Assembly (NCBI RefSeq): GCF_004115155.1
Contig: NZ_RDSM01000005.1
Location: 1 to 64,000, forward strand
Length of the DNA stretch: 64,000 bases
Reading direction: 5' to 3'
Origin: Granulicella sibirica
Lineage (GTDB): Bacteria > Acidobacteriota > Terriglobia > Terriglobales > Acidobacteriaceae
Part shown: piece after piece, positions 18,429 through 44,610 of the stretch
Layout of the letters: each line of letters begins with the position of its first letter
Position numbering within the stretch: the first letter of the stretch is position 1
Made by a program: the position numbers and the translations under genes
The notes under the pieces: generated by a model
Databases searched by the model: none
What the model saw: only the letters and a program-made list of their open reading frames with translations
What the model was told of the DNA's origin: nothing

Positions 18429-18925
18429 ATGGGAGTGAGTGCTCGACTGGAAACGAGGCTTCATAACGATGCTGATGCCATGGTACTCGCGCTTTCCACG
18501 GCAGCTTCCTGGCTGCAATCGCCCTTCCTGCTGGTGGTAAGACTGTATTGGGGCTGGCAGTTCGCGCAGACCGGGTGGGGCAAGCTGCACAACCTGCAGA
18601 AGACTATGGACTTCTTCGACAGTCCGGACATCCGTTTCCCTCGACGAACGCGCATTTTGTCACGGGCCTTGAACTGGTTGGCGGCACCCTTCTGATTGGG
18701 TTCGCGATTGATCGGCTTCCTGCTCGTAGGGAATATGCGGCTCGCATACTGGACGGCCGATCACGAGGCGCTGACGTCGATCTTCTCCGACCCGGACAAA
18801 TTCTCGCCCGGTTAGAGAAGCGGAGATGGCGTGCCGAATGGACACTGTCGTCTTCGCGACGCTCACCGCTCTCTTCGCGCCCAGAAAAAAAGCCTTCGAG
18901 GCGGAAGCCCAAGCAACAGAAATAA
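18429..18925 (+). pseudogene. DoxX family membrane protein, multiply frameshifted
   Basis: Pieces of one DoxX protein lie in successive frames. The first frame gives RLYWGWQFAQTGWGKLHN and FFDS. A second frame gives HPFPSTNAHFVTGLELVGG. A third gives GSRLIGFLLVGNMRLAYW and ADHEALTSIFSDPDKF before a stop. A last piece, VVFATLTALFAP, follows in yet another frame. At least three frame changes and a stop mean no functional product. DoxX proteins accompany many DUF692/bufferin clusters (as HvfD/BufD), so this is likely the lost fourth member of the neighbouring operon, although it lies on the opposite strand and beyond the protease. The 3' end overlaps the SSS transporter gene. Confidence 0.8.
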
Positions 18926-20590
18926 CACGCCGACTCCGGCATCGATCCAGTGCGCCGCCGGTGCCTGCGCCAGCGCCCCCGACGATATTAGAAGCAATCC
19001 CACCGCGAGCGTTGCAAGCCGGATGATGTGGTCCGAGGAATTCGATTTCCCCTTCGATATACCGCTCTCCTCCGCCGAGATCGGCGTGTCGATCATGCGG
19101 AAGAAAGCGACCGAACGCTCCTGCTCTTCGGCCGAAACCTTCAAAAGCACACTTCCCAGATACATCCCGAGACAGGTCATACCGATGTTTGTAAAGATCG
19201 AGATTCCTTCTAACTGGAAGTCCAGCGTCTGGGTCGACGCACCGCCCGTCTTCGCCGCGAAGATCGCCTTCGCCGTAAGTGTCGCCACTCCGGAGATCAT
19301 CCCAAACGCAAAGCCCCCAATCACTCCCTTAGAGGTAAGGCCGCGAAAGACCAGTGTGCAAAGCAGAGGAAGAAGCGTAGGCGCGAGCAGGACCCCGAAT
19401 GCCGTTACCATGATGTGAAATAGCGAGTCTCGGCCGCTCCTTCCGATCCAGATGCTTATCCCTATGATGATCGTCCCCAACAGAAGCGTCATCGCGCGCC
19501 CGGCAGCCACCAGCCCGCGCTCGCTTGAAGCAGGCCGAAAGATCCTCTGGTAGACGTCTTTGGTCAGAACGCCCGCAATCGCGTTCAGATCCGCACTGAC
19601 GGTCGCCATCGTCGCCGAGAAGAGCGCCGCTACAATGATCCCGATCATCCCTGCGGGAAGCAGCGTGAAGATCAGATGTACATACACGTCCTGAGGCTTC
19701 TGTGACGTCGCGAACTCCGGCGTCAAGCGCCGCGCCATGAAGGCTGGCAGAAGCATGATCGGCGTGCCAGCAAAGTTTAGCGCAGCCGCAAGATACGCCG
19801 CTTTCTTACCAGACCGCTCATCCGGTACCGAGTAGTACTTCTGCGCAAATGACCAATTCCCGTTATAGCTGATGATGACGATGAGGCAGTAGCTTAGCAT
19901 GTAAGTCCAGCGATACGGCCCGTTTGTTGCGTGCATCAGGTTCGCCGGAATGCTGGTGAGCGCCACATGGACGCCGCCGAGGCGCCATACCGCAAGCGGC
20001 AGAAGCAGAAGTATCGCCAGTGCCTTCATGATGAACTGCAGATAGTCCGTCACCACGAGCGCAAGCAGACCGCCAAGCAGCGTGTAAACGATCACGATGA
20101 CGCCGCACACCAAAATCGATATCTTGATCTCGATTCCCATGCCGGCCGAGAGGAAGACCGCCGTTGTGAAGATCTTCAGCGCATCGTCAAACACTTTTGC
20201 CGGAATCGCCGACCAGGCGAACAACTGGCGCACCGGCAAGCTGCAGCGAGCCTCCAGAAACTCCACCGGAGTAATGATCCGGGCACGCCGCCAGCGTTTC
20301 GCAAACAGCATGCCACCAAGCAGGCATGCGGGTACGCTCGTCCACGAGAGCAGAATCGCGGGCAAGCCATAGCGGTACGCCATCTCCGAGTACACGATGA
20401 ACGTGAACGCGCTGAAGCCCGACATGTAGAGCGAGATTCCCGCCAACCACCACGAGATCTGATGTCCGCCCGCGAAAAAATCGCTCGCCGTCTTTTGCTG
20501 CCTGCGAAAGTAGAGCCCGATCAGGAGGACCAGGGCAAAGTAGCCAAGGATGACCACATAGTCCGACATCAGAAGGTGCGTCGAGTTCAT
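18863..20590 (-). CDS. Sodium:solute symporter (SSS family)
   Basis: A 575-residue inner-membrane transporter with about 13 predicted spans. The SSS start is visible in YFALVLLIGLYFRR followed by SDFFAGGHQISWWLAGISLYMSGFSAFTFIVYSE, matching the Na+-binding TM1 region. Family members import sugars, sialic acid, amino acids or vitamins with Na+. Its ATG overlaps the stop of the 3-hydroxyacyl-CoA-dehydrogenase-like gene (ATGA), so it is the last gene of the deacylase-iclR-dehydrogenase-transporter operon and probably imports that pathway's substrate. The 3' end overlaps the DoxX remnant. Confidence 0.9.
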   Translation of the reverse strand: MNSTHLLMSDYVVILGYFALVLLIGLYFRRQQKTASDFFAGGHQISWWLAGISLYMSGFSAFTFIVYSEMAYRYGLPAILLSWTSVPACLLGGMLFAKRWRRARIITPVEFLEARCSLPVRQLFAWSAIPAKVFDDALKIFTTAVFLSAGMGIEIKISILVCGVIVIVYTLLGGLLALVVTDYLQFIMKALAILLLLPLAVWRLGGVHVALTSIPANLMHATNGPYRWTYMLSYCLIVIISYNGNWSFAQKYYSVPDERSGKKAAYLAAALNFAGTPIMLLPAFMARRLTPEFATSQKPQDVYVHLIFTLLPAGMIGIIVAALFSATMATVSADLNAIAGVLTKDVYQRIFRPASSERGLVAAGRAMTLLLGTIIIGISIWIGRSGRDSLFHIMVTAFGVLLAPTLLPLLCTLVFRGLTSKGVIGGFAFGMISGVATLTAKAIFAAKTGGASTQTLDFQLEGISIFTNIGMTCLGMYLGSVLLKVSAEEQERSVAFFRMIDTPISAEESGISKGKSNSSDHIIRLATLAVGLLLISSGALAQAPAAHWIDAGVGVLFLLLGLPPRRLFFWARRER

Positions 20591-21552
20591 AGCCGTCCGC
20601 TTTCGGCGATGGGGAACACCTCATCCACCACACGCCGAACCCTCCACACCTGCTCGCGGTAGATCTCCTCCCAGCGCGCTGTCTCCTCCGGCGTATACGA
20701 GTGAAACCCCTGACCGCACTTCACACCGGTCAGCCCGTCCCGCATCATCGTCGCCATTGGCTCCGGCACCTCGGCGGTATTCGAAAGCGTCGGCAATACG
20801 CCGCTCATTGCTTTGCCATACAGGGCAGGGCCGCCGGTCAGATCTATCCAGCGAAACGGCCCGCATACACTTGCCCACAGTCCGAAGGTGTTGCTGAATG
20901 CCTTATCGATCGTCTCCGCATCGCCAACGCCGAGCGCAAGCAGATTGCATGCCTCGCGATACATGGCATAGCCCATGCGGTTGGCGATAAACCCCGGCAG
21001 GTCCTGCTGCACCACGCATGGATCCTTGCCAAGGCGCTTCGCCAGCACCGTCGCCGTCTCCATCGTGAAATCGTCGGTGAGATCTCCGCGAATCAGCTCC
21101 AGAAAGCGCGTCGCATGTGCGGGCTCCGCCCAGTGCATGCCAAGGAAACGCTCCGGATGTCGGTGGCCCTTCTGTAGCAGGGAGATCGGCAGCGCGGATG
21201 TGTTGCTTGCGATCGGCACACTCGCGCCCAGCACAGACTCCAGATCCGCAAACAACGAGTTCTTTGCCTCAAGCGATTCTGTAATGCTTTCAAGCACGAA
21301 CCCGCACCCTGCAAGCTCGCCGATCGAGCCGGCCTCGGTGTAGCGCGCCGACCACTCCTCACGCAGCGCAGGATCGTAGCCCGCACGCTCGATCAGTTCC
21401 TCGATCGCTTTCGCGATGGTGACGCGCGCCTCGACGTATTCCTGCTCCAGAAGCGTATACGACACCACCCCCAGACCACTGGCCAGAAGACAGCCCGCAA
21501 CGTTGCGCCCCATGAAGCCAAGGCCCACGATCCCAACCACCTGCACATTCAT
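20587..21552 (-). CDS. 3-hydroxyacyl-CoA dehydrogenase-like NAD-dependent dehydrogenase (copy 1)
   Basis: A 321-residue two-domain dehydrogenase. An N-terminal NAD-binding Rossmann domain has GLGFMG at 10-15. The catalytic block has SNTS (116-119) and His140-x2-Glu143 (GMHWAEP), and a C-terminal 3HCDH domain ends in GVKCGQGFHSYTPEE. The length fits stand-alone 3HCDH proteins, which include L-gulonate 3-dehydrogenase and carnitine dehydrogenase as well as acyl-CoA enzymes, so the substrate may be a beta-hydroxy acid rather than a CoA ester. It is 94 bp after iclR and coupled to the SSS gene. A close paralogue is encoded at 35819-36781. Confidence 0.85.
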   Translation of the reverse strand: MNVQVVGIVGLGFMGRNVAGCLLASGLGVVSYTLLEQEYVEARVTIAKAIEELIERAGYDPALREEWSARYTEAGSIGELAGCGFVLESITESLEAKNSLFADLESVLGASVPIASNTSALPISLLQKGHRHPERFLGMHWAEPAHATRFLELIRGDLTDDFTMETATVLAKRLGKDPCVVQQDLPGFIANRMGYAMYREACNLLALGVGDAETIDKAFSNTFGLWASVCGPFRWIDLTGGPALYGKAMSGVLPTLSNTAEVPEPMATMMRDGLTGVKCGQGFHSYTPEETARWEEIYREQVWRVRRVVDEVFPIAESGRL

Positions 21553-21646: not shown

Positions 21647-22450
21647 TCAGGCTCGCTGATAGGCTGCCGACTCCTTGCCCTTCGGATAGCCCCACGAGTA
21701 GGAGATTGCCGACGTGCAGGCCTTCAGCGTCTCCGCAAGACGCGGCAGGTTGTCGGCGCGAATCTGGTGAATCGTCCCTGCTATGCTGATCGCTGCAACA
21801 GGATTCCCCGCATCGTCGTAGATCGGCGCACCAAGGCAACGCCAGCCGATCTCATCCTCTTCATCGTCGATCGAGTAAGAGCGCTGTCGAATCTTCGCGA
21901 AGTCTTCCTGCAGCTTGCGCAGCGTCGAGATGGTGTTCTCGTTGTGCCGCGGAAACTTGCGCAGCCGGTAGATCGTCTTCAGGTCTGTCCCGCTCATATA
22001 AGCGCCGAGCGCCTTGCCGATCCCGGTGCAGTGAATCTCCATTCGCTTGCCGCGCCATGTAGCCAGACCGTTCGATCCAGGGGGGTTGTACTTCGCAACG
22101 AGCACCGCCTCGTACTGGTCGAGCACCCCAAGGTGCACAGTCAACCCCGTTTGCTCCATCAACTGCATCATGAACGGTGCAGCCTGCTCCCGGATCGGCA
22201 GACCACTCAATGACGTGTTGGCAAGCCCGAACAACTTCAGCCCGAACATGTATCGCCCCGTCTGCGTGCTGCGATGCAGATAGCCCGCCCGCTCCAGCGT
22301 TAGCAGGAGGCAGTGAATCGAGCTCTTCGGGATGTTGGAGCTCTCGACGAGCTGTGAGAGCGAAAGCCCATTCTTCGAACTAGCCAGCGATTCCATCAGG
22401 TTCAAGGCGCGTTCCACTGCGGGTACGGATGGAGTCCGGCTAGCGTTCAT
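21647..22450 (-). CDS. IclR family transcriptional regulator
   Basis: A 267-residue regulator. The N-terminal winged helix-turn-helix (about 8-70, VPAVERALNLMESLASSKNGLSLSQLVE then IPKSSIHCLLLTLERAGYL) is followed by the IclR effector-binding domain (about 85-255, with the TGIGKALGAYMSG and AISIAGTI blocks). Its start overlaps the deacylase stop by 11 bp. A GTCCA-N6-TGGAC palindrome (22539-22554) lies 89 bp upstream inside the deacylase gene. The same palindrome occurs before five other transcription units of the locus. I infer that this protein binds it and controls the whole 18.9-44.6 kb region. Confidence 0.92.
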   Translation of the reverse strand: MNASRTPSVPAVERALNLMESLASSKNGLSLSQLVESSNIPKSSIHCLLLTLERAGYLHRSTQTGRYMFGLKLFGLANTSLSGLPIREQAAPFMMQLMEQTGLTVHLGVLDQYEAVLVAKYNPPGSNGLATWRGKRMEIHCTGIGKALGAYMSGTDLKTIYRLRKFPRHNENTISTLRKLQEDFAKIRQRSYSIDDEEDEIGWRCLGAPIYDDAGNPVAAISIAGTIHQIRADNLPRLAETLKACTSAISYSWGYPKGKESAAYQRA

Positions 22451-24041
22451 AGTGGAGTTCTCCTATCGTGTCAGAGGTCGATGGATGGCTCACGATAGCA
22501 TGCGCAAGTGGCCGTCCCGACCTAAGAATACCGCGCCCGTCCAATAGGCTGGACGACTTCGGCAAGAGTAAAGTTCCCTTGATGACGAGATGAATCCCGG
22601 TTGGAGCTACACTCGGCGACTCGAACGTAGCCCGACTTCCGATCGTCTCCGGGTCGAAGATCGTGATATCCGCAATTGCGCCCGGAGTAAGCAGGCCACG
22701 GTCACGAAGCCCTAAACGAGCTGCCGGAGCCGCCGTAATTTTGCGCACTGCTTCGCTCAGGGAAAGCCACTTTCGCGTTCTCACAAACTCGCCTAGGAAC
22801 GTCGGAAACGCCCCTGCAAGCCGGGGATGCGGCCTCTGCGCCACGTAAAAGCCGTCTGTAATGATGGACGCCAGCGGATGAGTCAGGAGCATCTTCAGGT
22901 TCGCCTCGCTCTGGTTGAACGCGACGATGTTTACCCGCCCCCGCTCTTCCAAAAGAATATCCAGCACCGTCGCCGCAGGGGCCGTTCCGCGGGCCTCGGA
23001 GATCTCGGCGATGGGTTTGCCAATTAGCTCCTTGTTCTCGGCGCTATGCAGCGAAGAGACGAAGATGTCTTCCCAGCCCTGCGCCGTCTCCTCGTTCAGC
23101 GCCCTCTCCAAATCCCCGCGCGATGACGCGATCACGCCCAGCATCCCCGCGAGGCCGCCGACAAGGGCGCTCTGCGGCAGAAGCTGCGTCATCACCGTAC
23201 TTCCAGCCAGATACGGATAGCAGTCGAACCCGATATCGATCCCGGCAACCCGCGCTTCTTCGATCTTCTCCAGAGCTACGCACTGCTTGTACCAGTTCTC
23301 CCGTCCAACAGCCTGCAAATGTGAGATCTGCACCCGGCATCCCGTCCTGCGTGCCAGTTCGAGCTGTTCGTCCACCGACTCCAGAAGCTCCCAGGAATAG
23401 CTTCGCATGTGGCTCGTGTACAGTTTGTCGTGCTTCGCGACCACCCGGCAAAGAGCCTCCAGCTCTGCAAACGGGGCCTGGGAACCCGGCGCGTACATCA
23501 ATCCGGTCGAGAAGCCGATCGCCCCTTCCGTGAGCGCCTCATCCAGCGCGCCTGCAAGCCCATCCAGATCCCTCAACTCCGTCGTATTCGCGTCTTTCCC
23601 CAACCCCGCCGTCCGCAAGGCTCCATGCCCGATCAGGGACTCCACATGCACAAGACGCGAAGCCGCCCTTACCGCGTCGAGATATCCACGCGCGCTTGGC
23701 CAGCACGCCTCACCATTCAGAATCCCCTCATTTTGCTCCCCTAGCAGGTCCGCATGGTGCCCACACGGATAGGGCGAGAACCCGCAGTTCCCAACCACCT
23801 CCGTCGTGATTCCCTGGTCACTCTTCTCGCGCCGGTTCTCCAATACCTTCAAATCCGAATGGCTATGCAGATCGATGAATCCGGGCGACAACACAGCCCC
23901 ATCCAGTTCAATGACACTCGCATCCGCCGGGGCGTCCACCTCCCCAACCGCCTTGATCTTCCCTTCACTCACCAGCACGCTCCCCGCATAGGGAGTAGCC
24001 CTCGAACCATCAACAATCAGTGCATTCCGCAGAAGAAGCAT
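22440..24041 (-). CDS. N-acyl-D-amino-acid deacylase family amidohydrolase (copy 1)
   Basis: A 533-residue zinc amidohydrolase of the D-aminoacylase family, which removes the acyl group from N-acyl-D-amino acids. The metal-site pattern is intact: His59 and His61 (HSHSD), Cys86 (VVGNCGFSP), His in YTSHMRSY, His in QISHLQAVG, and Asp in ITDGFYV. The HPRLAGAFPTFLGEF block that follows is typical. The start at 24041 (MLLLRNALIVDG) is chosen because the longer frame would run through the palindromic site at 24085-24100. It is divergent from a second amidohydrolase and is the first gene of an operon with iclR, dehydrogenase and SSS genes. The paralogue is at 33392-34897. Confidence 0.88.
   Translation of the reverse strand: MLLLRNALIVDGSRATPYAGSVLVSEGKIKAVGEVDAPADASVIELDGAVLSPGFIDLHSHSDLKVLENRREKSDQGITTEVVGNCGFSPYPCGHHADLLGEQNEGILNGEACWPSARGYLDAVRAASRLVHVESLIGHGALRTAGLGKDANTTELRDLDGLAGALDEALTEGAIGFSTGLMYAPGSQAPFAELEALCRVVAKHDKLYTSHMRSYSWELLESVDEQLELARRTGCRVQISHLQAVGRENWYKQCVALEKIEEARVAGIDIGFDCYPYLAGSTVMTQLLPQSALVGGLAGMLGVIASSRGDLERALNEETAQGWEDIFVSSLHSAENKELIGKPIAEISEARGTAPAATVLDILLEERGRVNIVAFNQSEANLKMLLTHPLASIITDGFYVAQRPHPRLAGAFPTFLGEFVRTRKWLSLSEAVRKITAAPAARLGLRDRGLLTPGAIADITIFDPETIGSRATFESPSVAPTGIHLVIKGTLLLPKSSSLLDGRGILRSGRPLAHAIVSHPSTSDTIGELHYER
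22539..22554. promoter_or_regulatory. Palindromic operator GTCCA-N6-TGGAC, site 1 (iclR)
   Basis: GTCCAATAGGCTGGAC, perfect 5-bp arms. It lies inside the 3' end of the deacylase gene, 89 bp in front of the iclR start, so it fits autoregulation. Confidence 0.75.
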
Positions 24042-24084
24042 CGTGCCGAGTCTAGCAACAAAGCTCCCCGCCTTAGAACCCGCT

Positions 24085-24100
24085 GTCCAATGAGCTAGAC
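24085..24100. promoter_or_regulatory. Palindromic operator, site 2 (divergent deacylase/amidohydrolase)
   Basis: GTCCAATGAGCTAGAC, one mismatch in the right arm. It lies in the 114-bp gap between the deacylase (start 24041) and the amidohydrolase (start 24156). Confidence 0.7.
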
Positions 24101-24155: not shown

Positions 24156-24992
24156 ATGGTTGATTGTCACACCCACCTATGGAAGGCCGAGGATTGGAGC
24201 GAAGAGATGGAGCGCGAGGCCAGCATCGCCCGCGGCGCACCCGCCCAGATAGATATCAGCGAAGAAGACCACTGGGCTGCGATGGAGCCTGTCGATCGAG
24301 CGATCGTCTTCGGCTTCCACTCCAGCCATCTCGGCCTCGTCGTGCCCAACGACCGGGTGAAGGACTACGTTGCGCAGCATCCTGAGAAGCTGATCGGCTT
24401 CGCATGTCTCGACCCGCTTGAACCTGACTACCTCGACGAGATGAAGAAGGTCTTCCTTCGCGATGGTTTTCGCGGCCTTAAATTGGCGCCCATCTACCAG
24501 AACTTCCATCCGATGGACGAGCGTATGCTGCCTGTCTACACCTTCTGCGAGAAGCAAGCTATCCCTGTGCTTATCCATCAGGGCACCACCTTTCCGCGTC
24601 GAGCTCCGCTCAAGTACGCGCTGCCCATCCAGGTGGAAGACGTGGCGCTCGCCTATCCTGATCTCAAGATCGTCGTCGCGCACATGGGCCACCCCTGGGT
24701 CGAGGACGCGGTCGTTCTCATTCGCAAGCAGCCCAATGTCTACGCGGACATCTCGGCGCTCTACTACCGCCCGTGGCAGTACTACAACGCGCTTATGCTG
24801 GCGCAGGAATATGGCTGCGGTCATAAGCTCCTTATGGGTTCGGACTACCCCTTCACCACCCCTGCCGAGACCATCGCCTCCCTGCGCAACGTGAACCATA
24901 TCATCGGCAACTCCGGCTTGCCACGCATCACCGAGAAGCTGACCGAGGGCATTATCGAACGCGACACCATCAAGCTGCTTGCGCTGGATTGA
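24156..24992 (+). CDS. Amidohydrolase-2 family metal-dependent hydrolase
   Basis: A 278-residue TIM-barrel hydrolase. The metal motif HTH is at residues 5-7 (MVDCHTHLW). Downstream blocks are GFRGLKLAPIYQNFHP, a metal His in VLIHQGTT, a His in VVAHMGHPWVED, and GSDYPFTTP with the catalytic Asp. The family includes decarboxylases such as ACMSD and lactone or amide hydrolases, so the reaction is uncertain. The start at 24156 is fixed by AAAGGAG eight bases upstream. It shares operator site 2 with the divergent deacylase. No signal peptide, so cytoplasmic. Confidence 0.85.
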   Translation: MVDCHTHLWKAEDWSEEMEREASIARGAPAQIDISEEDHWAAMEPVDRAIVFGFHSSHLGLVVPNDRVKDYVAQHPEKLIGFACLDPLEPDYLDEMKKVFLRDGFRGLKLAPIYQNFHPMDERMLPVYTFCEKQAIPVLIHQGTTFPRRAPLKYALPIQVEDVALAYPDLKIVVAHMGHPWVEDAVVLIRKQPNVYADISALYYRPWQYYNALMLAQEYGCGHKLLMGSDYPFTTPAETIASLRNVNHIIGNSGLPRITEKLTEGIIERDTIKLLALD

Positions 24993-24997
24993 TCGGC

Positions 24998-25013
24998 GTC
25001 CATCCCGCTGAAC
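24998..25013. promoter_or_regulatory. Palindromic operator, site 3 (GHL10 gene)
   Basis: GTCCATCCCGCTGAAC, one mismatch in the right arm, 51 bp upstream of the GHL10 gene start and just after the amidohydrolase stop. Confidence 0.55.
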
Positions 25014-25064: not shown

Positions 25065-26243
25065 ATGAGTGATTCACTAAGCCGCCGCAGGCTCCTCCAG
25101 CTTCTTCCCACCGCAGCCGCGGCCTCTGCTCTGCCGATCGCCGCACAGACGGCTCCGGTCCAGAAGATGACCCAGGTTCCGCGCGCGCCCAGACCCTCGA
25201 AAGAGGTTCGCGCAATCTGGATCCATCCCGAGCAGCACACCTCGCCCGACGAGAAGACCGGAAAGGCGCAGATCAAGGCTACCGTCGAGCGCTACGCCCG
25301 CGCCAACTTCACGTTGCTTCTTCCCTGGACCGTGAGTGGCTACCTTGCAGCGCTGGATCACCCGCAGTATCGCAAGCTCCATCCCACCGCAGAGTGGGAC
25401 TACCTCGGTTACCTCATCGAAGAAGCAAGCAAGGAAGGACTCGACGTCGATCTCTGGTACAGTTTCACCGATTACCGCGATCCCGCATCTCCTGAGTTCG
25501 ACCCTGCCATGGGCGGCAGCAAAGACTGGATGGCCAAGCGCCTTGACGAGGTCGTTCCCAACCAGACTCTGATGAAGCTCGACGCGCAACGCCCCGACAA
25601 CGTGTGTCCGCAGCACTACCAGGCACGAGCGTGGATGCAAGCCCAGCTTGAGCGTACGTTCGCCCGCTACCCAAAGCTTAATGGCTTCCACATCGAGGAG
25701 CCCGGATACGGCACGAAGGGGTACTGTGTCTGCCCTCTCTGCCGCTCGGTCTTTGAGCAGCTTCACGGCCGCAAACTCACCGAAGTGCTCGATACCCAGA
25801 TCGCTGAAGACTTCCGAACCCTCGGCAACAGCGCCTTCGTCGAAGAGGTTCGCGATCAGATGGCGCAAAGGCATGCGAAGATGACGCTCTCCGCCAACGG
25901 CGGCTTCGACTGGCGTCACGATCGCATCCGTGGCCGCGACTGGGGCCGCTGGGCAAACTCCGGATGGCTCCGCTACTTCATCCCCCAGGTCTACCAATCC
26001 GACATCAACATCTTCCGAGAGCAGCTTGCTCTGACTATCTCGGACATCGGACTCTCTTGTCCCGTCTACGCCGGTATGGCGCTCGACTCGACCTCCGGCA
26101 AAAGCACCATCCAAAATATCGTGCAGCAAATCAACGCGGCACGCGATCTCGGCGCACCCGGCGTCTCGCTTTTTCACGGCGCGGCGTTCACCGACGATGA
26201 CCTCAAAGTTCTAAGAGATGTCCCATTCAAGAAGCCGGTCTAG
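25065..26243 (+). CDS. Secreted glycosyl-hydrolase-like family 10 (GHL10) protein
   Basis: A 392-residue protein with an N-terminal SRRRLLQLLP twin-arginine-like signal followed by an Ala-rich hydrophobic stretch. The body is a TIM barrel of the GHL10/DUF4015-like kind: EVRAIWIHP at the first strand, then ERYARANFTLLLPWTVSG, DVDLWYSFTDYR, LNGFHIEEPGYG (carrying candidate catalytic Glu residues), and a Cys cluster YCVCPLCRS. Family members are thought to act on glycans, but few have been tested. It follows the amidohydrolase by 72 bp with operator site 3 in the gap. It converges on the GH20-like gene with a 6-bp gap. Confidence 0.7.
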   Translation: MSDSLSRRRLLQLLPTAAAASALPIAAQTAPVQKMTQVPRAPRPSKEVRAIWIHPEQHTSPDEKTGKAQIKATVERYARANFTLLLPWTVSGYLAALDHPQYRKLHPTAEWDYLGYLIEEASKEGLDVDLWYSFTDYRDPASPEFDPAMGGSKDWMAKRLDEVVPNQTLMKLDAQRPDNVCPQHYQARAWMQAQLERTFARYPKLNGFHIEEPGYGTKGYCVCPLCRSVFEQLHGRKLTEVLDTQIAEDFRTLGNSAFVEEVRDQMAQRHAKMTLSANGGFDWRHDRIRGRDWGRWANSGWLRYFIPQVYQSDINIFREQLALTISDIGLSCPVYAGMALDSTSGKSTIQNIVQQINAARDLGAPGVSLFHGAAFTDDDLKVLRDVPFKKPV

Positions 26244-28259: not shown

Positions 28260-28557
28260 CGTGTCAGCAGGATACCCGCGCTAAGCCGTATACCCAACGC
28301 AAACTCCATTCTTTTGCACTGAAAGCGCAACTGCGTCCATGCCATTGGACGATCCACCCCCAATCTCAAATTCCTCTCTTGGCAATATGTTGCAAACGGA
28401 TGAAAGTGAATCATCGCACCCGGGAATTAACTGCTTTTCGCATGGTTCGTCTCCGAGCAGGCAGCCATGTATCCGCAGACGCGCGGGCAGGCGATCCAGA
28501 GTTCCCTCTCTAACGCTTTAAGTAATTGTGACTACTTTTCGACACGAGGACACCTTT
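28260..28557. other. Divergent regulatory region, GH20-like / TonB receptor
   Basis: 298 bp between divergent genes with operator site 4 at 28335-28350. I see no gene here; promoters for both directions must lie in it. Confidence 0.55.
28335..28350. promoter_or_regulatory. Palindromic operator, site 4 (GH20-like / TonB receptor)
   Basis: GTCCATGCCATTGGAC, perfect 5-bp arms, between the divergent GH20-like and TonB receptor genes. Confidence 0.75.
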
Positions 28558-33386: not shown

Positions 33387-33391
33387 GAGCA

Positions 33392-35822: not shown

Positions 35823-36781
35823 ACCTTCGGGGTATACCTCTCCGCGAGCTTCCGCATGTCGTAGGTGAACTGCCCCCAGTCCTTCTCCCACTGCTCCGCG
35901 CTTGCCTTCGTGTACTTGTAAAATCCCTTCTGATTCGCGATCCCCAGCGCCTTGCGCTTCACCATCCTTTGCATCGTCATCGGAACCTCGGTGCTCGTCG
36001 TCAACTCCGGCAGCAAACCTTCCATCACCGCCGCATACGCCGGAATCCCCGTCAGATCCATCCACCGGAACGGTCCCGCCAACAGCGCCCACCACCCAAT
36101 GTCATTGCGAAACGACTGGTCCACCGTCTCCACATCCGCCACTCCGCTCTCCACCAGGTAGCAGGCCTCGCGTATCATAGCGTACATCAGCCGGTTCGAC
36201 AGAAACCCACGGATATCGTGCTTCAACACGGCAGGCTCCTTGCCGCAGGCCACACCGAACGCCAGACAAGCCTTCACCGTAGCATTGCTCGTCTTCTCTC
36301 CGGGAATGATCTCAAGGTACCGCATGATCTGCGCGGGCTCTCCCCAGTGCATGCCGATGTATCGCCCCGGAGCCACGCGTCCCTCCTGCAAAAGAGAGAT
36401 CGGCAGGCTCGAAGTATTCGACGCGATAATGGTCTTTTTCGGCATTACCGCATCTAGCTGCGCGAAAATCTCCCGCTTCAGTGCAAGATCTTCCTTCACA
36501 CACTCGATCACCAACCAGCACGATGCTAGATCGGACATGCTCGCAGCCGCATGCAGCCTGTTCTTCCAACTCTTCGCCATGTCCGCGCCGAGCAGCTTCT
36601 GCTTCTCTAACTCCCGCAGCGCCGCGGCTGCGTGCTTTATAGTCGCCGCATGCTTCGACGCATCCACGTCGAAGGCCACCACCTCGTCTCCGTGCGCCAG
36701 CAGACACGCAGCAATCCCCTGTCCCATTAGGCCAAGCCCAACAATCCCCACCCGCTTCAGAGCCGTTCCCTTGTTTTTCAT
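35819..36781 (-). CDS. 3-hydroxyacyl-CoA dehydrogenase-like NAD-dependent dehydrogenase (copy 2)
   Basis: A 320-residue paralogue of the enzyme at 20587-21552. The NAD motif GLGLMG is at 15-20. SNTSSLPISLLQEG and the catalytic GMHWGEP are both preserved almost word for word between the two copies, and the C-terminal 3HCDH domain ends in GIANQKGFYKYTKAS. The start at 36781 (MKNKGTALKR) is chosen because the Rossmann strand follows at once and the longer frame would cross the divergent control region. It is coupled by ATGA to the DMT transporter and divergent from ridA, sharing operator site 6. Confidence 0.85.
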   Translation of the reverse strand: MKNKGTALKRVGIVGLGLMGQGIAACLLAHGDEVVAFDVDASKHAATIKHAAAALRELEKQKLLGADMAKSWKNRLHAAASMSDLASCWLVIECVKEDLALKREIFAQLDAVMPKKTIIASNTSSLPISLLQEGRVAPGRYIGMHWGEPAQIMRYLEIIPGEKTSNATVKACLAFGVACGKEPAVLKHDIRGFLSNRLMYAMIREACYLVESGVADVETVDQSFRNDIGWWALLAGPFRWMDLTGIPAYAAVMEGLLPELTTSTEVPMTMQRMVKRKALGIANQKGFYKYTKASAEQWEKDWGQFTYDMRKLAERYTPKV

Positions 36782-36836: not shown

Positions 36837-36852
36837 GTCCAGTTCGTTGGAC
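36837..36852. promoter_or_regulatory. Palindromic operator, site 6 (dehydrogenase / ridA divergent region)
   Basis: GTCCAGTTCGTTGGAC, perfect 5-bp arms, midway in the 149-bp gap between the divergent dehydrogenase (start 36781) and ridA (start 36931). Confidence 0.78.
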
Positions 36853-36930: not shown

Positions 36931-37329
36931 ATGGCCGTCCAGCAGATCAAGAACCCCAACAAGAACGCCGACACCGGAGCCTACTCCGACGGCATCATCG
37001 TCGACGGATGGCTTTACGTCTCCGGCCAGGGCCCCATCGACATGGCTACCGGACAGGCCGTTGCCGGAACCATCGAAGAAGAGGTCCGCCTCACCCTACG
37101 CAACATGGGCGATGTCCTCAAGGCCGGCGGATGCGACTACTCCGACGTCGTCAAGTGCACCGTGCACCTCATCGATATCGAGACCTTCGGCCGTTTCAAT
37201 GCCGTCTACCAGGAGTTCTTCAAAGGCGTCCTGCCCACCCGCACCACCGTCCAGTCCATGCTGAGCCTCGGCATAAAGGTTGAGATCGATGCCATCGCCC
37301 GCATCCCCACCGGAGACCAGCATGCCTGA
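36931..37329 (+). CDS. RidA family enamine/imine deaminase
   Basis: A 132-residue member of the RidA/YjgF/UK114 family, which hydrolyses reactive enamine or imine products of PLP enzymes. The family blocks are visible: AYSDGIIVDGWLYVSGQGP at the start, EEEVRLTLRNMGDVLKAGG, and the C-terminal VLPTRTTVQ with the carboxylate-binding Arg. The start at 36931 has GGAG eight bases upstream and excludes operator site 6 from the coding sequence. It heads a six-gene operon with every junction overlapping. Its presence beside PLP enzymes fits a role in clearing or completing a deamination step. Confidence 0.92.
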   Translation: MAVQQIKNPNKNADTGAYSDGIIVDGWLYVSGQGPIDMATGQAVAGTIEEEVRLTLRNMGDVLKAGGCDYSDVVKCTVHLIDIETFGRFNAVYQEFFKGVLPTRTTVQSMLSLGIKVEIDAIARIPTGDQHA

Positions 37330-38644
37330 GTGGCTCATCGGTTTTGCCCGCACCCGCATCACCCCGCCTCTCGGCTGCGAGATGGCAGGCTTTGACGCGC
37401 GCAAGGGCGTCGCCGATGCCGTCCACGATGATCTATATGCCCATGCGCTCGTCTTCGATGATGACGGTGCGCAGACCGTGCTCATGAGCCTCGACGTCAT
37501 CGCCGTCTCCGCGGAGTTTTCGCTGGCCGTGAGGCGGGACATCGAAGAGGCTACGGGCATTCCGGCAAGCAATATCTTTCTCGCCGCAACCCACACCCAC
37601 TGCGGTCCTGTCACGGTCGACCTCTTCTATCAAGGGCAGCAGCTCGACGTAGCCTATCTCCAGTCGCTTCGTCGCGTTGTTGTGACCGTGGCGATTACAG
37701 CCAGCAACAATAAAAGGCCGCGTACCCTGAAGACGGGCATGGTGCCGGTCGCCGGCATCGCCGTCAATCGGCGCACTCCGGATGGACTTCCGGTCGATCC
37801 ATTCGCAGGGGTCTTCTTCATCGAAGAGCTGGATGGCCAGGCCGCCGCCGTCGCGGTCATCTACGCCTGCCACACAACGGTGCTTGGTCCGGATACACTC
37901 AGCTTCACCCAGGACTTCCCTTTTTATACGCTCGCAAAACTGAAGAGTGTGCTGGGCCAAAGCGTCGAAGCCCTCTATTTCAACGGAGCGCAAGGTGATC
38001 TGAGTATCGGTCATAAGAGCAACCTCAGCGCCGTGGGCGTGATCGATCCGTTCCGCACTTTTGCCACCGCGCAGCGGCTCGGCGAAAGACTCGCGGATGC
38101 TGTGCTCGCTGGCCTGAAGAATCTGGCACTCGAAGCGCCGGGCGTCAAGGTACTGTCGCATAAGGTCGCTCTTCCGCTTAAGCGGTATGAACCGCTGGTC
38201 GCGATGACCCAAGCCCGCGAAGAGGCTGGCCGAAGAATTGATCCCCAACGCATGGATGCCGAGATGCTCGCCATTCGTCAGGACTCTCTCTTCGCTCGTA
38301 TCGAGGAGTATTACGCGAAGCTCTATGAGCAGTCCGACGCTCCCGAACCGAAGACGCTCTCTATCGAATGTGCGGCAATCCTGCTGGGTGAAACGGCCAT
38401 CATCACCCTGCCCGGCGAGGTGTTCGCCCGCGTCGCCCTCGGCATCCGCGCCGCCTCGCCCTTCGCCAAGACCATCTTCCTCGGCCTCACCAATAACTAC
38501 ATCGGCTACCTCCCTGACCACGAAGCCACCCGCGATTCTGGCTACGAGGTCGTCGCCTCTCGCGTCTCCGCTATCGCCGGAGACATATTGCAACAGGAAA
38601 CGTTACAACTACTAAACGCTCTCCAGAAAGCAAGTGCCCGATGA
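37322..38644 (+). CDS. Neutral/alkaline ceramidase-like hydrolase
   Basis: A 440-residue protein resembling the N-terminal catalytic domain of neutral ceramidases. It has the start GFARTRITPPLGCEMAGF, a metal-binding HTHCGP block around residue 91 (AATHTHCGPV), then VIYACHTT, YFNGAQGDLS and the late GEVFARVALGI block. Ceramidases hydrolyse N-acyl amide bonds; bacterial relatives without a signal peptide, like this one, may act on other N-acyl compounds. That activity would match the two deacylases of the locus. The ATG lies 8 bp inside ridA. Cytoplasmic. Confidence 0.75.
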   Translation: MPEWLIGFARTRITPPLGCEMAGFDARKGVADAVHDDLYAHALVFDDDGAQTVLMSLDVIAVSAEFSLAVRRDIEEATGIPASNIFLAATHTHCGPVTVDLFYQGQQLDVAYLQSLRRVVVTVAITASNNKRPRTLKTGMVPVAGIAVNRRTPDGLPVDPFAGVFFIEELDGQAAAVAVIYACHTTVLGPDTLSFTQDFPFYTLAKLKSVLGQSVEALYFNGAQGDLSIGHKSNLSAVGVIDPFRTFATAQRLGERLADAVLAGLKNLALEAPGVKVLSHKVALPLKRYEPLVAMTQAREEAGRRIDPQRMDAEMLAIRQDSLFARIEEYYAKLYEQSDAPEPKTLSIECAAILLGETAIITLPGEVFARVALGIRAASPFAKTIFLGLTNNYIGYLPDHEATRDSGYEVVASRVSAIAGDILQQETLQLLNALQKASAR

Positions 38645-39678
38645 AGATCCGCATCGGTGTCATCGGCGCCGGCATCATGGGCCAGCAGTACGTCCGCATT
38701 TATCAGGACCACCCCTACGCCGAAGTCACTGCAGTCGCCGCGAAGCACCTTAATCGCGCCAGGGAAGCCGCCGCGCGTTTCAACGTCCCACTTGCCACCG
38801 GCGACTGGCACACTATCACCGAGTCCGCCGATATCGACGCCGTCTGCATCGCTCTACCCGATGACGAACACTTCGCCGCGACCCAGAGCGCGCTCCTCAA
38901 CGGCAAACACGTCCTCCTCGAAAAGCCCATGACCACAAGCCTCCCGGAGGCCGATGCTATCGTGGCTCTTGCTGAGGCCACCAACCTCAAGGTCCAGGTG
39001 GCCTTCAACCACCGCTGGCTTGCGCCTTACCATCAGGGCAAGGTCTCCATCGCCAACGGCGACATTGGCGCACCCGTCACCTCCTACGCCCGGAAGGTCG
39101 ACACCATCTTCGTACCAACCAAGTACATCAACTGGGCCCACCAGACCACACCCGCCTGGTTCCTCAGTTGCCACGACATCGACCTTGTCACCTGGTTCTT
39201 CAACGCCGAGCCCATCGAAGCCCACGCCTGGGGCGTCAGGCGCGTCCTCGTCGCGCAGGGCATCGACACCTACGATGTGATCCAGGCGCAGGTCCGCTAC
39301 GACAGCGGAGCCATCGCAACCTTTGAGTCTGGCTGGATCTATCCCAACACCTTCCCTACCATGGTTGACTCCTTTATCAGCGTCATCGGGGAGCACGGTC
39401 ACCTCCACTTCGATCGCAAGCGGGAGAGCCTCGAGATGAGCACCCCCACCGCCTTCACGTACCCCAAAACCTTCCTCTCCGCCGACGTCTTCGGCACCCT
39501 CCGGGGAGCCTTCCCCTCCTGCCTTGACGACTTCGTCAACGCCATCCGAAAAGACCTTCCACCAGCAGTCAACGTGCACGATGGCCGCAAAGTAACGGCC
39601 GTCCTTACCGCCATCCACGAGTCCCTCGCGACCGGGGCTAACGTCCCCGTCCAGCCCTACACCAAGGAATCCCTATGA
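38641..39678 (+). CDS. Gfo/Idh/MocA family oxidoreductase
   Basis: A 345-residue NAD(P)-dependent sugar-type dehydrogenase. The Rossmann motif GAGIMG is at 9-14, the EKP motif with the catalytic Lys at 94-96 (LLEKPMTTS), and a C-terminal alpha/beta domain carries the substrate pocket with the HDIDLVTWF block. The family oxidises or epimerises sugars, inositols and uronic-acid derivatives. ATGA overlaps at both ends place it inside the ridA operon. It gives the locus a sugar-type chemistry next to its amino-acid-type chemistry. Confidence 0.9.
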   Translation: MKIRIGVIGAGIMGQQYVRIYQDHPYAEVTAVAAKHLNRAREAAARFNVPLATGDWHTITESADIDAVCIALPDDEHFAATQSALLNGKHVLLEKPMTTSLPEADAIVALAEATNLKVQVAFNHRWLAPYHQGKVSIANGDIGAPVTSYARKVDTIFVPTKYINWAHQTTPAWFLSCHDIDLVTWFFNAEPIEAHAWGVRRVLVAQGIDTYDVIQAQVRYDSGAIATFESGWIYPNTFPTMVDSFISVIGEHGHLHFDRKRESLEMSTPTAFTYPKTFLSADVFGTLRGAFPSCLDDFVNAIRKDLPPAVNVHDGRKVTAVLTAIHESLATGANVPVQPYTKESL

Positions 39679-41030
39679 CCGCAACCCCCGAGCGCTATGC
39701 CCGCTCCATCGCCGACCTAACCCGCTCGAAGAAGACCCTCGCCGGCGGCGTTAGCAGCAACGTCCGCCTCGGGGACAAGCCCTTCCCGCTCTTCTTCGAT
39801 CGCGGCCTTGGCTCGCATCTATGGGACGTCGACGGCAACGAGTACATCGACTACGTCCTCGGCCGTGGCCCTCTTCTCTTGGGCCACACCCCAAAGGAAG
39901 TTGTCCAAGCCACAGTAGACCAACTCTGGCGCGGCCAGATCTACGCCGCCCAGCACGAGCTTGAGTACGAACTCTCCGAGCGCGTCTCCCGCATCATCCC
40001 GTGCGCCGACCTCGTGCGCTTCGGCATCTCGGGGTCTGAAGCAGTGCATGGTGCCCTTCGCCTCGCCCGCGCCGCCACCGGCCGCCAGACCGTCCTCAAG
40101 TTCGAAGGCCAGTACCACGGATGGCTCGACAACATTCTCTATAGCCTCTCGCCTGATCCCACCCGCGCCGGCCACGCCCTCCATCCAGCGACTCTCGCCG
40201 AGTCCTCCGGCCAATTCAGCGGGGCCGACAGCCACGTCGTAGTCCTTCCCTGGAATAACATCGAAGTCCTCTCGCAGTATCTCGAACAGCACCACAATGA
40301 GATCGCCGCCATCATCACCGAGCCGGTCATGTGCAACACCGCCGTCATCCCTCCGCTCCCCGGTTATCTCGAAGCCATGCGTGACCTCTGCACCCAGCAC
40401 GGCGTCGTTCTCATCTTCGACGAGGTCATCACCGGCTTCCGGCTCTCCCTTGCCGGTGCGCAGGGCCGCTTCAACATCAAGCCCGACCTCACCATCTTCG
40501 GCAAGGCCATCGCCAACGGCATGCCCATATCTTGCCTCGCCGGACGCGAGCAGTTCATGGGCCTCATCGCCCAGGGCAAGGTCGGCCACGGAGGCACCTA
40601 TAATAGCCTCCCGGCCGCCGTCGCCGGGGCCATCGCCACCCTCGACCTTCTGGAGAAAGACGGAGCCGCCGTCTACGACACCCTCGAGACAACCGGCCAA
40701 TCTCTTATGCAGGGCATCCGTAATCTCACCGCGAAACATGACATCCAGGCCGTCATCCAGGGCTACGGAGCCATCTTCTACCTCGGGTTCCCCGTGCAGG
40801 GCGCCAACCTCCCTGTCGGACAGGCCATCACCGATTACCGCAGCTCCCTCGCGATGGACAACGACCTTTATACTATCTTTGTCTCTGCCATGGTCGATCG
40901 CGGCGTACGCATCATCCCCCGCGGCAACTGGTTCCTCTCGTCGGCTCACAATCAGGCTGACGTAGAATCGACTCTCAAAGCTATAGAAGAAGTCTTCGCC
41001 GAAGTCATCGCTTCGAAGGTGACCGCATGA
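39675..41030 (+). CDS. Class III aminotransferase, glutamate-1-semialdehyde aminomutase-like (copy 2)
   Basis: A 451-residue PLP enzyme paralogous to the one at 32028-33386. It shows KTLAGGVSSNVR, WDVDGNEYIDY, GSEA at 120-123, GQYHGWLDN (145-153), the PLP-ring Asp249 (IFDEVITGFR) and Schiff-base Lys277 (IFGKAIANGMP). The two copies differ in the active-site entrance, for example GPLLLGH against GPYVLGH and the 90s segment, so they may handle two related intermediates. It is embedded in the ridA operon with ATGA overlaps on both sides. Confidence 0.88.
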   Translation: MTATPERYARSIADLTRSKKTLAGGVSSNVRLGDKPFPLFFDRGLGSHLWDVDGNEYIDYVLGRGPLLLGHTPKEVVQATVDQLWRGQIYAAQHELEYELSERVSRIIPCADLVRFGISGSEAVHGALRLARAATGRQTVLKFEGQYHGWLDNILYSLSPDPTRAGHALHPATLAESSGQFSGADSHVVVLPWNNIEVLSQYLEQHHNEIAAIITEPVMCNTAVIPPLPGYLEAMRDLCTQHGVVLIFDEVITGFRLSLAGAQGRFNIKPDLTIFGKAIANGMPISCLAGREQFMGLIAQGKVGHGGTYNSLPAAVAGAIATLDLLEKDGAAVYDTLETTGQSLMQGIRNLTAKHDIQAVIQGYGAIFYLGFPVQGANLPVGQAITDYRSSLAMDNDLYTIFVSAMVDRGVRIIPRGNWFLSSAHNQADVESTLKAIEEVFAEVIASKVTA

Positions 41031-41902
41031 GACTAGGCATTGCCGCAGCAGGCAACCGTACGTTCATGGCAGCCGAGTCTGCCGGGAGAATCGTAGATCT
41101 GTCCGCAGCCACCGGTACCCGCGACCTGGTGGCTATCATCCGCGACTGGTCCCAGTGGAAACCAATCATCGAGGACGTCATCGCAAGCGCTCCCAGCCAG
41201 GACATACCCGCTTTGTGGCAGAGCCCAATCCCCAACCCGCCCAAGTTCCTTCTTCTCGCCGGGAACTTCCGCGCCCACGTCGTCGAATCGGGTTTCGAGG
41301 CCGCACCTGAAGATAACCTGACGCCGCAGTTCTTCATGAAGCCCTGCACCACCATCATCGGCCCCACAAACGATATTCCCCTCACCTCTGCCAACCACGC
41401 CCTCGACTACGAGTCCGAGTTGGCCGTCGTGATCGGCACCCGCATCCGCAACGCAACCCTTGACAACGCAATGGACGCGGTCTGGGGCTACACGATCGTC
41501 AACGACGTCTCCGAGCGCAAGCTCAACGCAATGATGCAGGATCGCAAGCTCCGCTCCAACGACAACTTTTACGACTGGCTCGTCGGAAAGTGGTTTGATG
41601 GGTCAGCTCCGATGGGACCATACGTCGTTACTGTAGACGAGATAACCGAACCCTTTACCGTACACGCGCACCTCAACGGAGAACCCGTTCAGGAAGCTCC
41701 AACCACCGCCATGATTCACTCGGTCGCGGAGGCCATCGTCTACATCAGCAGGGTTCTTACTCTCGAACCCGGTGATGTCCTGTCCATGGGCACACCCGCC
41801 GGCGTGGGGGTGGCCCGCAATCGCCTCCTGCAAGCAGGCGATCTCATCGAGTGCGAGGTCACCGGAATAGGCAAGCTAAGCAACCGGGTCATCCAGCGAT
41901 GA
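41027..41902 (+). CDS. Fumarylacetoacetate hydrolase family protein
   Basis: A 291-residue FAH-superfamily enzyme, which cleaves C-C bonds in or decarboxylates 1,3-diketo acids. An N-terminal small domain is followed by the catalytic domain with metal ligands Glu129 and Glu131 (DYESELAVVIG), Asp160 (IVNDVSER), Lys188 (GKWFDGSAPMGP) and the closing GDVLSMGTPAGVG. In sugar-acid pathways such enzymes act on 2,4-diketo-3-deoxy acids. In this operon, coupled between the aminotransferase and the heparinase-like gene, it could do the final cleavage to central metabolites. Cytoplasmic. Confidence 0.9.
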   Translation: MRLGIAAAGNRTFMAAESAGRIVDLSAATGTRDLVAIIRDWSQWKPIIEDVIASAPSQDIPALWQSPIPNPPKFLLLAGNFRAHVVESGFEAAPEDNLTPQFFMKPCTTIIGPTNDIPLTSANHALDYESELAVVIGTRIRNATLDNAMDAVWGYTIVNDVSERKLNAMMQDRKLRSNDNFYDWLVGKWFDGSAPMGPYVVTVDEITEPFTVHAHLNGEPVQEAPTTAMIHSVAEAIVYISRVLTLEPGDVLSMGTPAGVGVARNRLLQAGDLIECEVTGIGKLSNRVIQR

Positions 41903-44610
41903 ATCGATCTGGAGGCACTTGTCATACTGAAAGAAGCGACTGGGTCCCCATATTGTGCTCATGGTGTTTCAACGCGAGGAGGGCCGCGTACACCTTTGGA
42001 GTAACTGTAGCCGCCCTCGCATCAACGGCCCAGACACAAACTCCACATGCGCCTTGGCTCACCTCGGCCGAGTACCAAAGCCACTTCACTCCAAACCCAG
42101 GCTCTGCCGCGGACTCCGGCTCCCGTGACGGCTGGGAGAGCTTTCCGCTCGCCGAAGACGCAGGCTACGATCCCACCCTCCAAGTCCACACCACACCGAC
42201 GGAGAGCGCTTTGGAGCGCGCCGCCTCTCCTACCCAGGATGGGCCTTTCCAACTCGGCTTCATCAAACGCCTCAACATGGTCGCGATTGCGGGCTCGTCT
42301 CTCCACCTTAGGGCCCGCACCCCAGACGTCGCGACTCAAGTCCACATCACGATCTATAGAGAGCGCGAAGCCGAACACCACACCGCAGCCCTACCCTCTA
42401 CCAACTGGCAAACTCTTGCGATCCCTCTCACCTCATCTCCAGAACCCATCACCGCAATAGCCGTCACTGCGAACTTCCCGCAAGGAGTAGCCAGGCGCCA
42501 GGAGCGCTTCGAAATCTCTGATGTCGACCTCAAAGCTTCGGGGCTCGCTCATCTCCCGCTCGCGCAGCCCGAGGCTCTCTGGGACGAAGCACGAGCCATC
42601 TACTACCTTCGGCGCTCCATCGCGCCAAACGAAGATGTCCACCTGACCTTTGCAAGAGCCGCAGATGCAAAGTGGACTCTTACTGGTCCCGGCAACACCA
42701 TCGCAGCCAGCGGCACTGGCACCAGCATTGCGGTCAGACCGACTGTCTCAGGCCTCTGGACTATACATCTCACCACCTCAACCACAGACACCACCGCTCT
42801 CCTCCTGGTTCACTCTAAGAAAGCCCTTCTCTTCGACCAGCCCCAGACGCTCACTCCGGAACTCCTGGCTGCGGTCCACAGGCGCCGCGATGAACTCCGC
42901 AAGCTCGCGCATCCCGAGATGGGCCGCAACATCTCCCAGATGGACCCCGGCTTCCTTCTCCCTGGTCTGGCGTCCTACTTCGTGCTCCTCACCCAGTCGC
43001 CGGAGCTTGCCCTCCTCGACGCCATCGACTTCCGCGCGACCGGCGACACTGCCGCCCTCGCGGAGTCCCGTCGGCTCATCGCCGCCATCGCCTCCTGGCC
43101 CCTCTGGGTCCACCCCTGGTTCCCCGCCCACGGATACCACAGCTACTACCCCGTCGGTATGATGGCTAAGAACCTCGTGGTCGCCGAACAGTTTCTCGGC
43201 GACGTCCTGCCCAAGGAGGAACGCAAGGCCCTCGACCAGGCCCTCTTCAAACAAGCCATCCAGCCGGTCTACGAGGAGTACGTCCACGAAGACCGCCTCC
43301 AGTTCAATACCAGCAACTGGATCGGCAACACTGTCAGTGGAGCACTCCTCGCCGCTCTCGCCAACCCCGACCCCAACGCTGCTGGATATGCTCTTGGGCT
43401 ATACGTGAAGGAGCGCGATCACGTCCGCGCCGCCTACACCCCAGACGGCAGTTACGGCGAAGGAGCCAGTTACCACCGGTTCGATCTCGAAGGCAGTACG
43501 TTCGCCGCTGCTGCCATCAAGCGCATCCTCGGAACATCCATCGACGCATCGCTTCTGCCCGCCGACACCTACTTTCGCTCCGCCACCTACGGCACAGCGG
43601 GCCTACTCGACTACGGAGACAGTCACGTCGATCTGAAGCCCTCCAATACCTGGGCCTACTTAGCCGCACTGAATCAATCCCCATCGCTCACCGACTTCTA
43701 TTTTCAAAACCTCGACAGAAACTCGCCCCAGATCCTCCCGCGCGTCCTCTGGGAGTCAGCGATCACCCCTACCAATGCGCCTGGGCCAGCTCCGGTCTCC
43801 CGGCTCTTCCCCGACCGCGGCGTCGCCATTCTCCGCGATGACTCTACCGTTCTGTCGATCCGCGCGGGAAAGAACTTTAACCACAATCACAACGATCAAG
43901 GCAGCCTCTTCTACACTCACAACGGGACCCTCTGGCTGGGTGAGGCCGGATACAGCGACTACTACAAGGATCCGGCCTACTCAACCTTCGTCGTGCAGGC
44001 CATCGGGCACAACACGATCCTCATGGACCACAATCCGGAGAGCCAGCACCTGCCTGGTAACGCCGTCTTCGGCACCGCTCCCTCTATCCCCGTATCCCGC
44101 ATCACCCCCAGGATCTCCCTCATCCAGATCGACCTCACTTCCGTTTACACCGATCTGAACCGCTATACCCGTACCGTCGTCTTCCAGGCCAACGGCCCCA
44201 CCGTCGTTATCGACCAGATCGACTCGCCCGCACCTCACAACTACACCCAGGTATGGCATCCCAAACAAGCCCTTGCATCCCTCACCGCGGACAGCTTCCG
44301 CCTCACCAACGCCAGCGAGTACCTCACCGCCCAAACCTTTTCCGATACCACGATCACCATCGAGCGCAAGGACGACCCCTACCCACTCGCCAGCTACGAG
44401 CAGGCGGAGTACGAGCTCGTCGACCGGCCCTTCCGAATCGAGATCTCCACCGCGGCACCCGTCACCAAGGCCACGACCGTCACCATCCTCTCGCCCATCG
44501 CGGTCAAAGCTGTCTGGAACCCCGTTACACAAACCCTGTCTCTTCCTGATGCAACGATCTCACTCGCGCCCACCATCTCCGTGACTACACCGACCCAAAC
44601 TCTGCCCTGA
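41899..44610 (+). CDS. Secreted heparinase II/III-like polysaccharide lyase
   Basis: A 903-residue protein. An N-terminal signal-like stretch (FGVTVAALASTAQTQ) is followed by a beta-sandwich module (about 60-230), an alpha-helical toroid (about 300-560) and a C-terminal beta-rich heparinase II/III domain. The signature HNHND at 662-666 (FNHNHNDQGSLFY) is present. This architecture fits lyases acting on uronic-acid polysaccharides. The start at 41899 is chosen because ATG overlaps the FAH stop (ATGA). As last gene of the ridA operon, it suggests that the substrate is a uronate-containing glycan. Confidence 0.82.
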   Translation: MNRSGGTCHTERSDWVPILCSWCFNARRAAYTFGVTVAALASTAQTQTPHAPWLTSAEYQSHFTPNPGSAADSGSRDGWESFPLAEDAGYDPTLQVHTTPTESALERAASPTQDGPFQLGFIKRLNMVAIAGSSLHLRARTPDVATQVHITIYREREAEHHTAALPSTNWQTLAIPLTSSPEPITAIAVTANFPQGVARRQERFEISDVDLKASGLAHLPLAQPEALWDEARAIYYLRRSIAPNEDVHLTFARAADAKWTLTGPGNTIAASGTGTSIAVRPTVSGLWTIHLTTSTTDTTALLLVHSKKALLFDQPQTLTPELLAAVHRRRDELRKLAHPEMGRNISQMDPGFLLPGLASYFVLLTQSPELALLDAIDFRATGDTAALAESRRLIAAIASWPLWVHPWFPAHGYHSYYPVGMMAKNLVVAEQFLGDVLPKEERKALDQALFKQAIQPVYEEYVHEDRLQFNTSNWIGNTVSGALLAALANPDPNAAGYALGLYVKERDHVRAAYTPDGSYGEGASYHRFDLEGSTFAAAAIKRILGTSIDASLLPADTYFRSATYGTAGLLDYGDSHVDLKPSNTWAYLAALNQSPSLTDFYFQNLDRNSPQILPRVLWESAITPTNAPGPAPVSRLFPDRGVAILRDDSTVLSIRAGKNFNHNHNDQGSLFYTHNGTLWLGEAGYSDYYKDPAYSTFVVQAIGHNTILMDHNPESQHLPGNAVFGTAPSIPVSRITPRISLIQIDLTSVYTDLNRYTRTVVFQANGPTVVIDQIDSPAPHNYTQVWHPKQALASLTADSFRLTNASEYLTAQTFSDTTITIERKDDPYPLASYEQAEYELVDRPFRIEISTAAPVTKATTVTILSPIAVKAVWNPVTQTLSLPDATISLAPTISVTTPTQTLP

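Follow-up and report, generated by a model that had tools for sequence, protein, structure and literature searches.

Predicted operators of an IclR-family regulator across an 18-gene cluster of Granulicella sibirica

The window analysed here, 64,000 nucleotides from the start of contig C5 in the 6.14 Mb genome of Granulicella sibirica, carries a cluster of 18 genes between positions 18863 and 44610. Its left part lies on the minus strand and begins with a sodium:solute symporter of the SSF family (18863–20590) and a 3HCDH-type dehydrogenase (dehydrogenase 1, 20587–21552), both assigned by Pfam, followed by an IclR-family regulator of 267 amino acids (21647–22450); co-transcription of dehydrogenase 1 with iclR is presumed from their adjacency. 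A D-aminoacylase-like amidohydrolase, deacylase A, comes next on the same strand (22440–24041). Its ORF is open to 24176, with the ATG at 24041 preferred as the start, and overlaps the start of iclR by 11 bases. The plus strand then carries an Amidohydro_2 protein (24156–24992; Pfam) and a GHL10 glycosyl-hydrolase-like protein (25065–26243; 31 bits, cut-off 27.9). A GH20-like protein on the minus strand (26250–28259) contains a D-E pair (GFDEP, residues 287–288), which we take to be the catalytic pair, and is divergent from a TonB-dependent-receptor-like outer-membrane protein on the plus strand (28558–31878; Pfam). Class-III aminotransferase 1 (32028–33386; Pfam and NCBIfam) and a second D-aminoacylase-like amidohydrolase, deacylase B (33383–34897; Pfam), are also on the plus strand, whereas an EamA transporter (34872–35822; ORF open to 36095, start uncertain) and a second 3HCDH-type dehydrogenase (dehydrogenase 2, 35819–36781; ORF open to 36871, start probable) are on the minus strand. 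The remainder is a plus-strand run of six genes to 44610, which starts with a RidA-family protein (36931–37329) and continues with a ceramidase-N-domain-like protein (37280–38644; start uncertain), a Gfo/Idh/MocA oxidoreductase (38641–39678; Pfam), class-III aminotransferase 2 (39675–41030) and an FAA hydrolase family protein (41027–41902), both assigned by Pfam and NCBIfam, and a heparinase II/III-C-like protein (41851–44610; Pfam).

The first-pass annotation had named the IclR protein as the only transcription factor of the region, and it indeed represents the sole Pfam transcription factor family among the 19 larger ORFs tested between 18863 and 47561. Both of its domains score well above their cut-offs (HTH_IclR, 49.4 bits against 22; IclR_C, 151.8 bits against 24), and its recognition helix, PKSSIHCLLLTLE, spans residues 41–53. 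When deacylase A is aligned to an N-acyl-D-glutamate deacylase, the Cys, His, His and Asp positions given for an enzyme of that type (PMC12017989) match, as judged by eye. The gene content makes it conceivable, as a tentative assignment, that an N-acylated amino sugar or amino sugar acid is the substrate that the cluster imports and degrades.

Six copies of the 16-bp palindrome GTCCA-N6-TGGAC had been described in this cluster, four with perfect arms and two with a single mismatch in the right arm. A pattern scan of the window finds all six in place and with those arms; as palindromes they are assigned no strand, and the distances below are counted to the start codons chosen. S1 (22539–22554, perfect) precedes the iclR ATG (22450) by 88 bp. 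S2 (24085–24100, right arm TAGAC) lies between the divergent deacylase A and amidohydrolase genes, 43 bases from the former (24041) and 55 from the latter (24156), and S3 (24998–25013, right arm TGAAC) lies 51 bases upstream of the GHL10 gene (25065). S4 (28335–28350, perfect) is located between the divergent GH20-like and TonB receptor genes, at 75 bases (28259) and 207 bases (28558), respectively. S5 (31894–31909, perfect) precedes aminotransferase 1 by 118 bases (32028), and S6 (36837–36852, perfect) separates the divergent dehydrogenase 2 (55 bases; probable start 36781) and ridA (78 bases; 36931). The earlier description of each site as directly upstream of a transcription unit thus holds in that a site is found near the start of every presumed unit, but not for S1 in the strict sense, which lies, within the region 22440–22600, in the last codons of the deacylase A ORF (stop at 22440) and not in an intergenic gap. 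A seventh site, with one mismatch, occurs outside the cluster at 47336–47351, inside an ORF (45015–47561) without a Pfam match, and is probably due to chance.

Dinucleotide shuffles of the window gave a mean of 2.25 sites with at most one mismatch, and seven were reached in 1 of 100 shuffles. Across the whole genome, 10 perfect sites were counted, compared with 4 for a reversed control pattern, and four of these ten fall in the 14.3 kb between 22539 and 36852. For this interval, the density in the rest of the genome predicts about 0.014 perfect sites, where 4 are seen; with up to one mismatch allowed, the prediction is about 0.4, where 6 are seen. Since the genome total at this looser threshold (179) is close to that of the reversed control (159), lone one-mismatch sites carry little meaning, while their clustering does. 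Six perfect sites in 6.14 Mb remain outside the cluster, in agreement with the chance rate of about one per million positions that had been estimated, and they are few and scattered rather than the many random matches that would have spoken against the proposal. Four of them are contained in open frames of 318 to 912 amino acids; around the other two (L004 and L010), the overlapping frames are shorter, reaching at most 182 and 187 amino acids, and either may be genuine. Sites scattered in this manner and located in open frames, short ones in the case of L004 and L010, give no support to a wide genome regulon.

To place the sites in an evolutionary context, 398 genomes of the family were searched, and four besides the window's own contain a close relative of the IclR protein: three of the same genus, G146 (82% identity), G215 (80%; locus L018) and G074 (72%), and one of the same family, G154 (74%). 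All four share the gene neighbourhood, with its halves in opposite order in G074. As for conservation near orthologous genes, sites with no more than one mismatch occupy 21 of the 24 corresponding positions. S2, S4 and S6 occur in all four relatives (S6 in G215 included), with S4 perfect in each. S1 is present in three and absent in G074, where the best candidate has three mismatches; S5 is present in three and absent in G154, which has nothing up to two mismatches at this position. S3 is likewise present in three, each with a TGAAC arm, and absent in G215. The S3 mismatch is not decay, because the TGAAC arm is kept in all four genomes that have S3, the window's own included.

Arms, spacers and flanks of the orthologous sites differ in conservation. 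Over 26 sites (window included, S6 of G215 left out), the proportion of matching base comparisons is 96% in the arms (423/440), 49% in the spacer (129/264) and 35% in the 15-base flanks (461/1320). The conservation of S1 is partly confounded, since this site lies in coding sequence. An origin of the palindromes as chance matches or as a mobile repeat could appeal to the genome total with one mismatch, which is so near that of the reversed control. Chance or composition is nevertheless ruled out by the local excess together with a conservation across species that covers the arms but does not extend to spacer and flanks. The flanks, moreover, would be alike in a repeat that had moved recently, so that the probability of this origin is negligible. 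Several details of these loci were recorded in passing. The match to the deacylase A ORF in G074 stops short of iclR, and S1 is missing there. In G215, S6 (L127, 7920–7935) and S5 (L127, 12922–12937) agree with each other letter for letter, spacer included. Granulicella aggregans, which also has the locus, contains an extra ORF of 364 amino acids between iclR and dehydrogenase 1 (L017, 10785–11879), which the window does not have.

The first-pass annotation had also proposed comparing genome-wide matches with IclR orthologues. Made by perfect-site counts per genome, this comparison fails to separate owners of the regulator from non-owners: G010 and G018 have 10 and 11 perfect sites, yet no match to the IclR orthologue at E 1e-60, and such counts are of no use as a regulon marker when a perfect site occurs in 61 of the 62 genomes of the genus. 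Owners of the regulon are set apart by the clustering of sites, not by genome totals. All three perfect sites of G074 lie in the orthologous locus, as do four of the six in G146, and among the 18 genomes listed of the 62 of the genus, G074 is the sole one in which two perfect sites fall within 20 kb. Around more distant IclR relatives, at 37–48% identity, several sites are often present (e.g. L060, L065, L132 and L133), and some of these neighbourhoods have genes in common with the cluster described here (GH20, deacylase, aminotransferase, dehydrogenase, RidA). Among other distant relatives, no sites were found in the neighbourhoods of L059 and L064, and a single site with one mismatch was found in each of L061, L066, L067 and L069.

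The relationship between recognition helix and upstream DNA was compared for 92 iclR loci (L113, with only 10 bp upstream, was dropped). In genes whose helix belongs to the P-[KR]-S-[ST] class, a 5-6-5 palindrome of GTCCA or GTTCA type lies within 400 bp upstream in 51 of 62 when up to one mismatch is allowed, and in 36 of 62 when both arms must be perfect, compared with 20/1240 and 0/1240, respectively, in simulated sequences. Neither palindrome was found upstream of any of the 27 iclR genes with other helix types; both helix-class counts are without L019 and L110, which come from the same genomes as L111 and L018. The 11 genes of the P-[KR]-S-[ST] class without an upstream site include the G074 orthologue (72%). 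Within this class, a sister clade of 31 loci with Ser at residue 46 has GTTCA-N6-TGAAC in 30, 26 of them perfect, in a tally whose data set includes the duplicates L019 and L110. Malate synthase or isocitrate lyase lies near iclR in 29 of the 31 (both confirmed by Pfam in L067). Its presence in this clade, beside malate synthase or isocitrate lyase, ties the palindrome to the regulator rather than to a particular group of target genes. Most loci of the Ser46 clade (e.g. L029, L033, L037 and L070) have two GTTCA-N6-TGAAC sites, with the pair 69–80 bp apart in 25 of 31 and often exactly 73.

These observations support the earlier proposal that IclR is the binder, as the palindrome tracks iclR and its helix class through unrelated neighbourhoods. 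That the protein would bind a palindromic operator of the family type is a prediction from motif association, and a well supported one. The sites could instead be real operators of another regulator encoded elsewhere, with iclR among its targets, and G074, which keeps five of the six cluster sites without the one upstream of iclR, would fit such an arrangement. This appears improbable, considering that the same 5-6-5 palindrome with one base changed precedes iclR beside malate synthase or isocitrate lyase, where the targets differ, that none of the 27 iclR genes with another type of helix has it upstream, and that half-sites and spacing fit a known IclR motif class. We therefore favor the six palindromes as predicted operators of the IclR-family regulator encoded at 21647–22450, with a probability of roughly 0.86.

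If IclR is the binder, the recognition helices (residues 41–53) of two subunits would sit on the GTCCA and TGGAC half-sites. A single protein would then govern a local regulon formed by the 18-gene cluster at 18863–44610, its own gene included, because each presumed transcription unit begins near a site. Both activation and repression occur in the IclR family, and its named members include repressors, among them IclR of the glyoxylate bypass and KdgR. By analogy with these, IclR probably acts here as a repressor whose effect a small pathway acid would lift. Activation, whether alone or combined with repression, is the less probable mode given the same analogy; distances of 43 to 207 bp between sites and start codons fit either. 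A promoter scan found 3 promoters where 4.4 are expected by chance, and thus does not tell a repressor from an activator.

The half-site base appears to track residue 46 of the helix, as a pattern with exceptions and not as proof. Among the His46 loci, with the duplicates again included, 16 have a site nearer to GTCCA, 4 are tied, 2 are nearer to GTTCA (L096 and L099) and 9 have neither. A tree of residue 46 and operator base (L113 and L019 left out) contains three operator changes and two changes of residue 46, which form one or two independent pairs and are not significant; covariation was accordingly rejected as proof. A survey of IclR-family motifs reports a weak preference of His at position 32 for C at motif position 10 (PMC8222616). 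We equate its position 32 with residue 46 here, by way of the table of equivalent residues and an alignment to TM0065. In a third clade, with the helix PRS[ST][AG]HALL, GTCCGATTAGCCGGAC is found upstream of iclR in L059 and GTCCGATTAGCTGGAC in L026, and no such site is found upstream of iclR in L025 and L066. The letters of the L026 site are the same as those of S1 in G154 (L053, 10455–10470). G074 holds a paralogue of the third clade as well as the orthologue of the window's IclR.

Among known motifs, the operator most resembles the class NGT-12-ACN, with the consensus NGTYCRAW4TYGRACN (Suvorova and Gelfand 2021, PMC8222616), in its half-sites, GTYCR and YGRAC, and in the six bases between them. 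In the 26 orthologous sites, T2, C3, C4, T12, A15 and C16 are invariant, and the other arm positions agree in 22–25 of 26. The A-W4-T spacer of the class is not seen here: of the 26 spacers, 10 begin with A and 5 end with T. The operator thus resembles the class in half-sites and spacing but falls short of strict membership. Regulons of this class are reported to include sugar and sugar-acid COGs frequently (PMC8222616). The taxon table of the survey lists no Acidobacteria, and the word stem acidobacter is absent from its main text. Our literature search on acidobacterial IclR transcription factor binding found none, and a search on the GTCCA/TGGAC palindrome with its regulator found, by title and abstract start, none on this motif. 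The best NCBIfam model for the window's IclR is BhcR (NF045644), whose score of 177 bits is far below the 350-bit cut-off and rejects BhcR orthology. The best match of solved structure is the Thermotoga IclR TM0065 (PDB 1mkm; residues 12–255, E 1.9e-34), which has an unlike recognition helix; for Thermotogales, only group 2 motifs are reported (PMC8222616).

With respect to gene content, the closest parallel considered is the ong cluster of Pseudoalteromonas (PMC9537276), which also combines TonB receptors, GH20, a D-aminoacylase-type deacetylase, RidA, a sodium symporter and one local regulator; the window has each of these enzyme, receptor and symporter genes, by family only. The genes common in kind raise the possibility that the cluster is related to the ong cluster, which serves oxidised chitin (GlcNAc1A), with its regulator exchanged. 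We consider this unlikely. The ong regulator, OngR, is of the MurR/RpiR family and not IclR, and among the 19 ORFs, tested by protein family, no sugar-kinase family such as a KdgK-type KDG kinase, no OngC-type gene and no RpiR regulator was noted, class-III aminotransferases being the sole PLP family. Deacylase A scores higher against N-acyl-D-glutamate deacylase (260.9 bits) than against PpOngB (212.2 bits), and deacylase B higher against D-aminoacylase (252.5 bits) than against PpOngB (175.3 bits). Strict membership in the ong type is rejected, with both the MurR/RpiR regulator and the kinase missing.

A broader reading, which we regard as speculative and rather doubtful as a whole, would join two proposals. 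One is a simple operator code within one lineage of acidobacterial IclR proteins, with GTCCA and His46 for clusters of the kind seen here, GTTCA and Ser46 at the glyoxylate bypass and GTCCG in the third clade, in which paralogues within one genome (G074) would be separated by about one base pair per half-site. The other is that the regulon is an undescribed land counterpart of oxidised amino-sugar catabolism, with transamination replacing the marine OngC. Returning to the favored reading, the palindrome becomes a predicted regulon in a phylum missing from the taxon table of the IclR motif survey (PMC8222616), for which a regulator and an operator can be named, together with a candidate specificity residue and 18 genes presumed to form one functional unit. 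It also provides a predicted operator for the acidobacterial IclR encoded beside glyoxylate-bypass genes. Control of a gene cluster by IclR through a palindrome is clearly of a known kind, of which the operator and regulon of the window are a new example.
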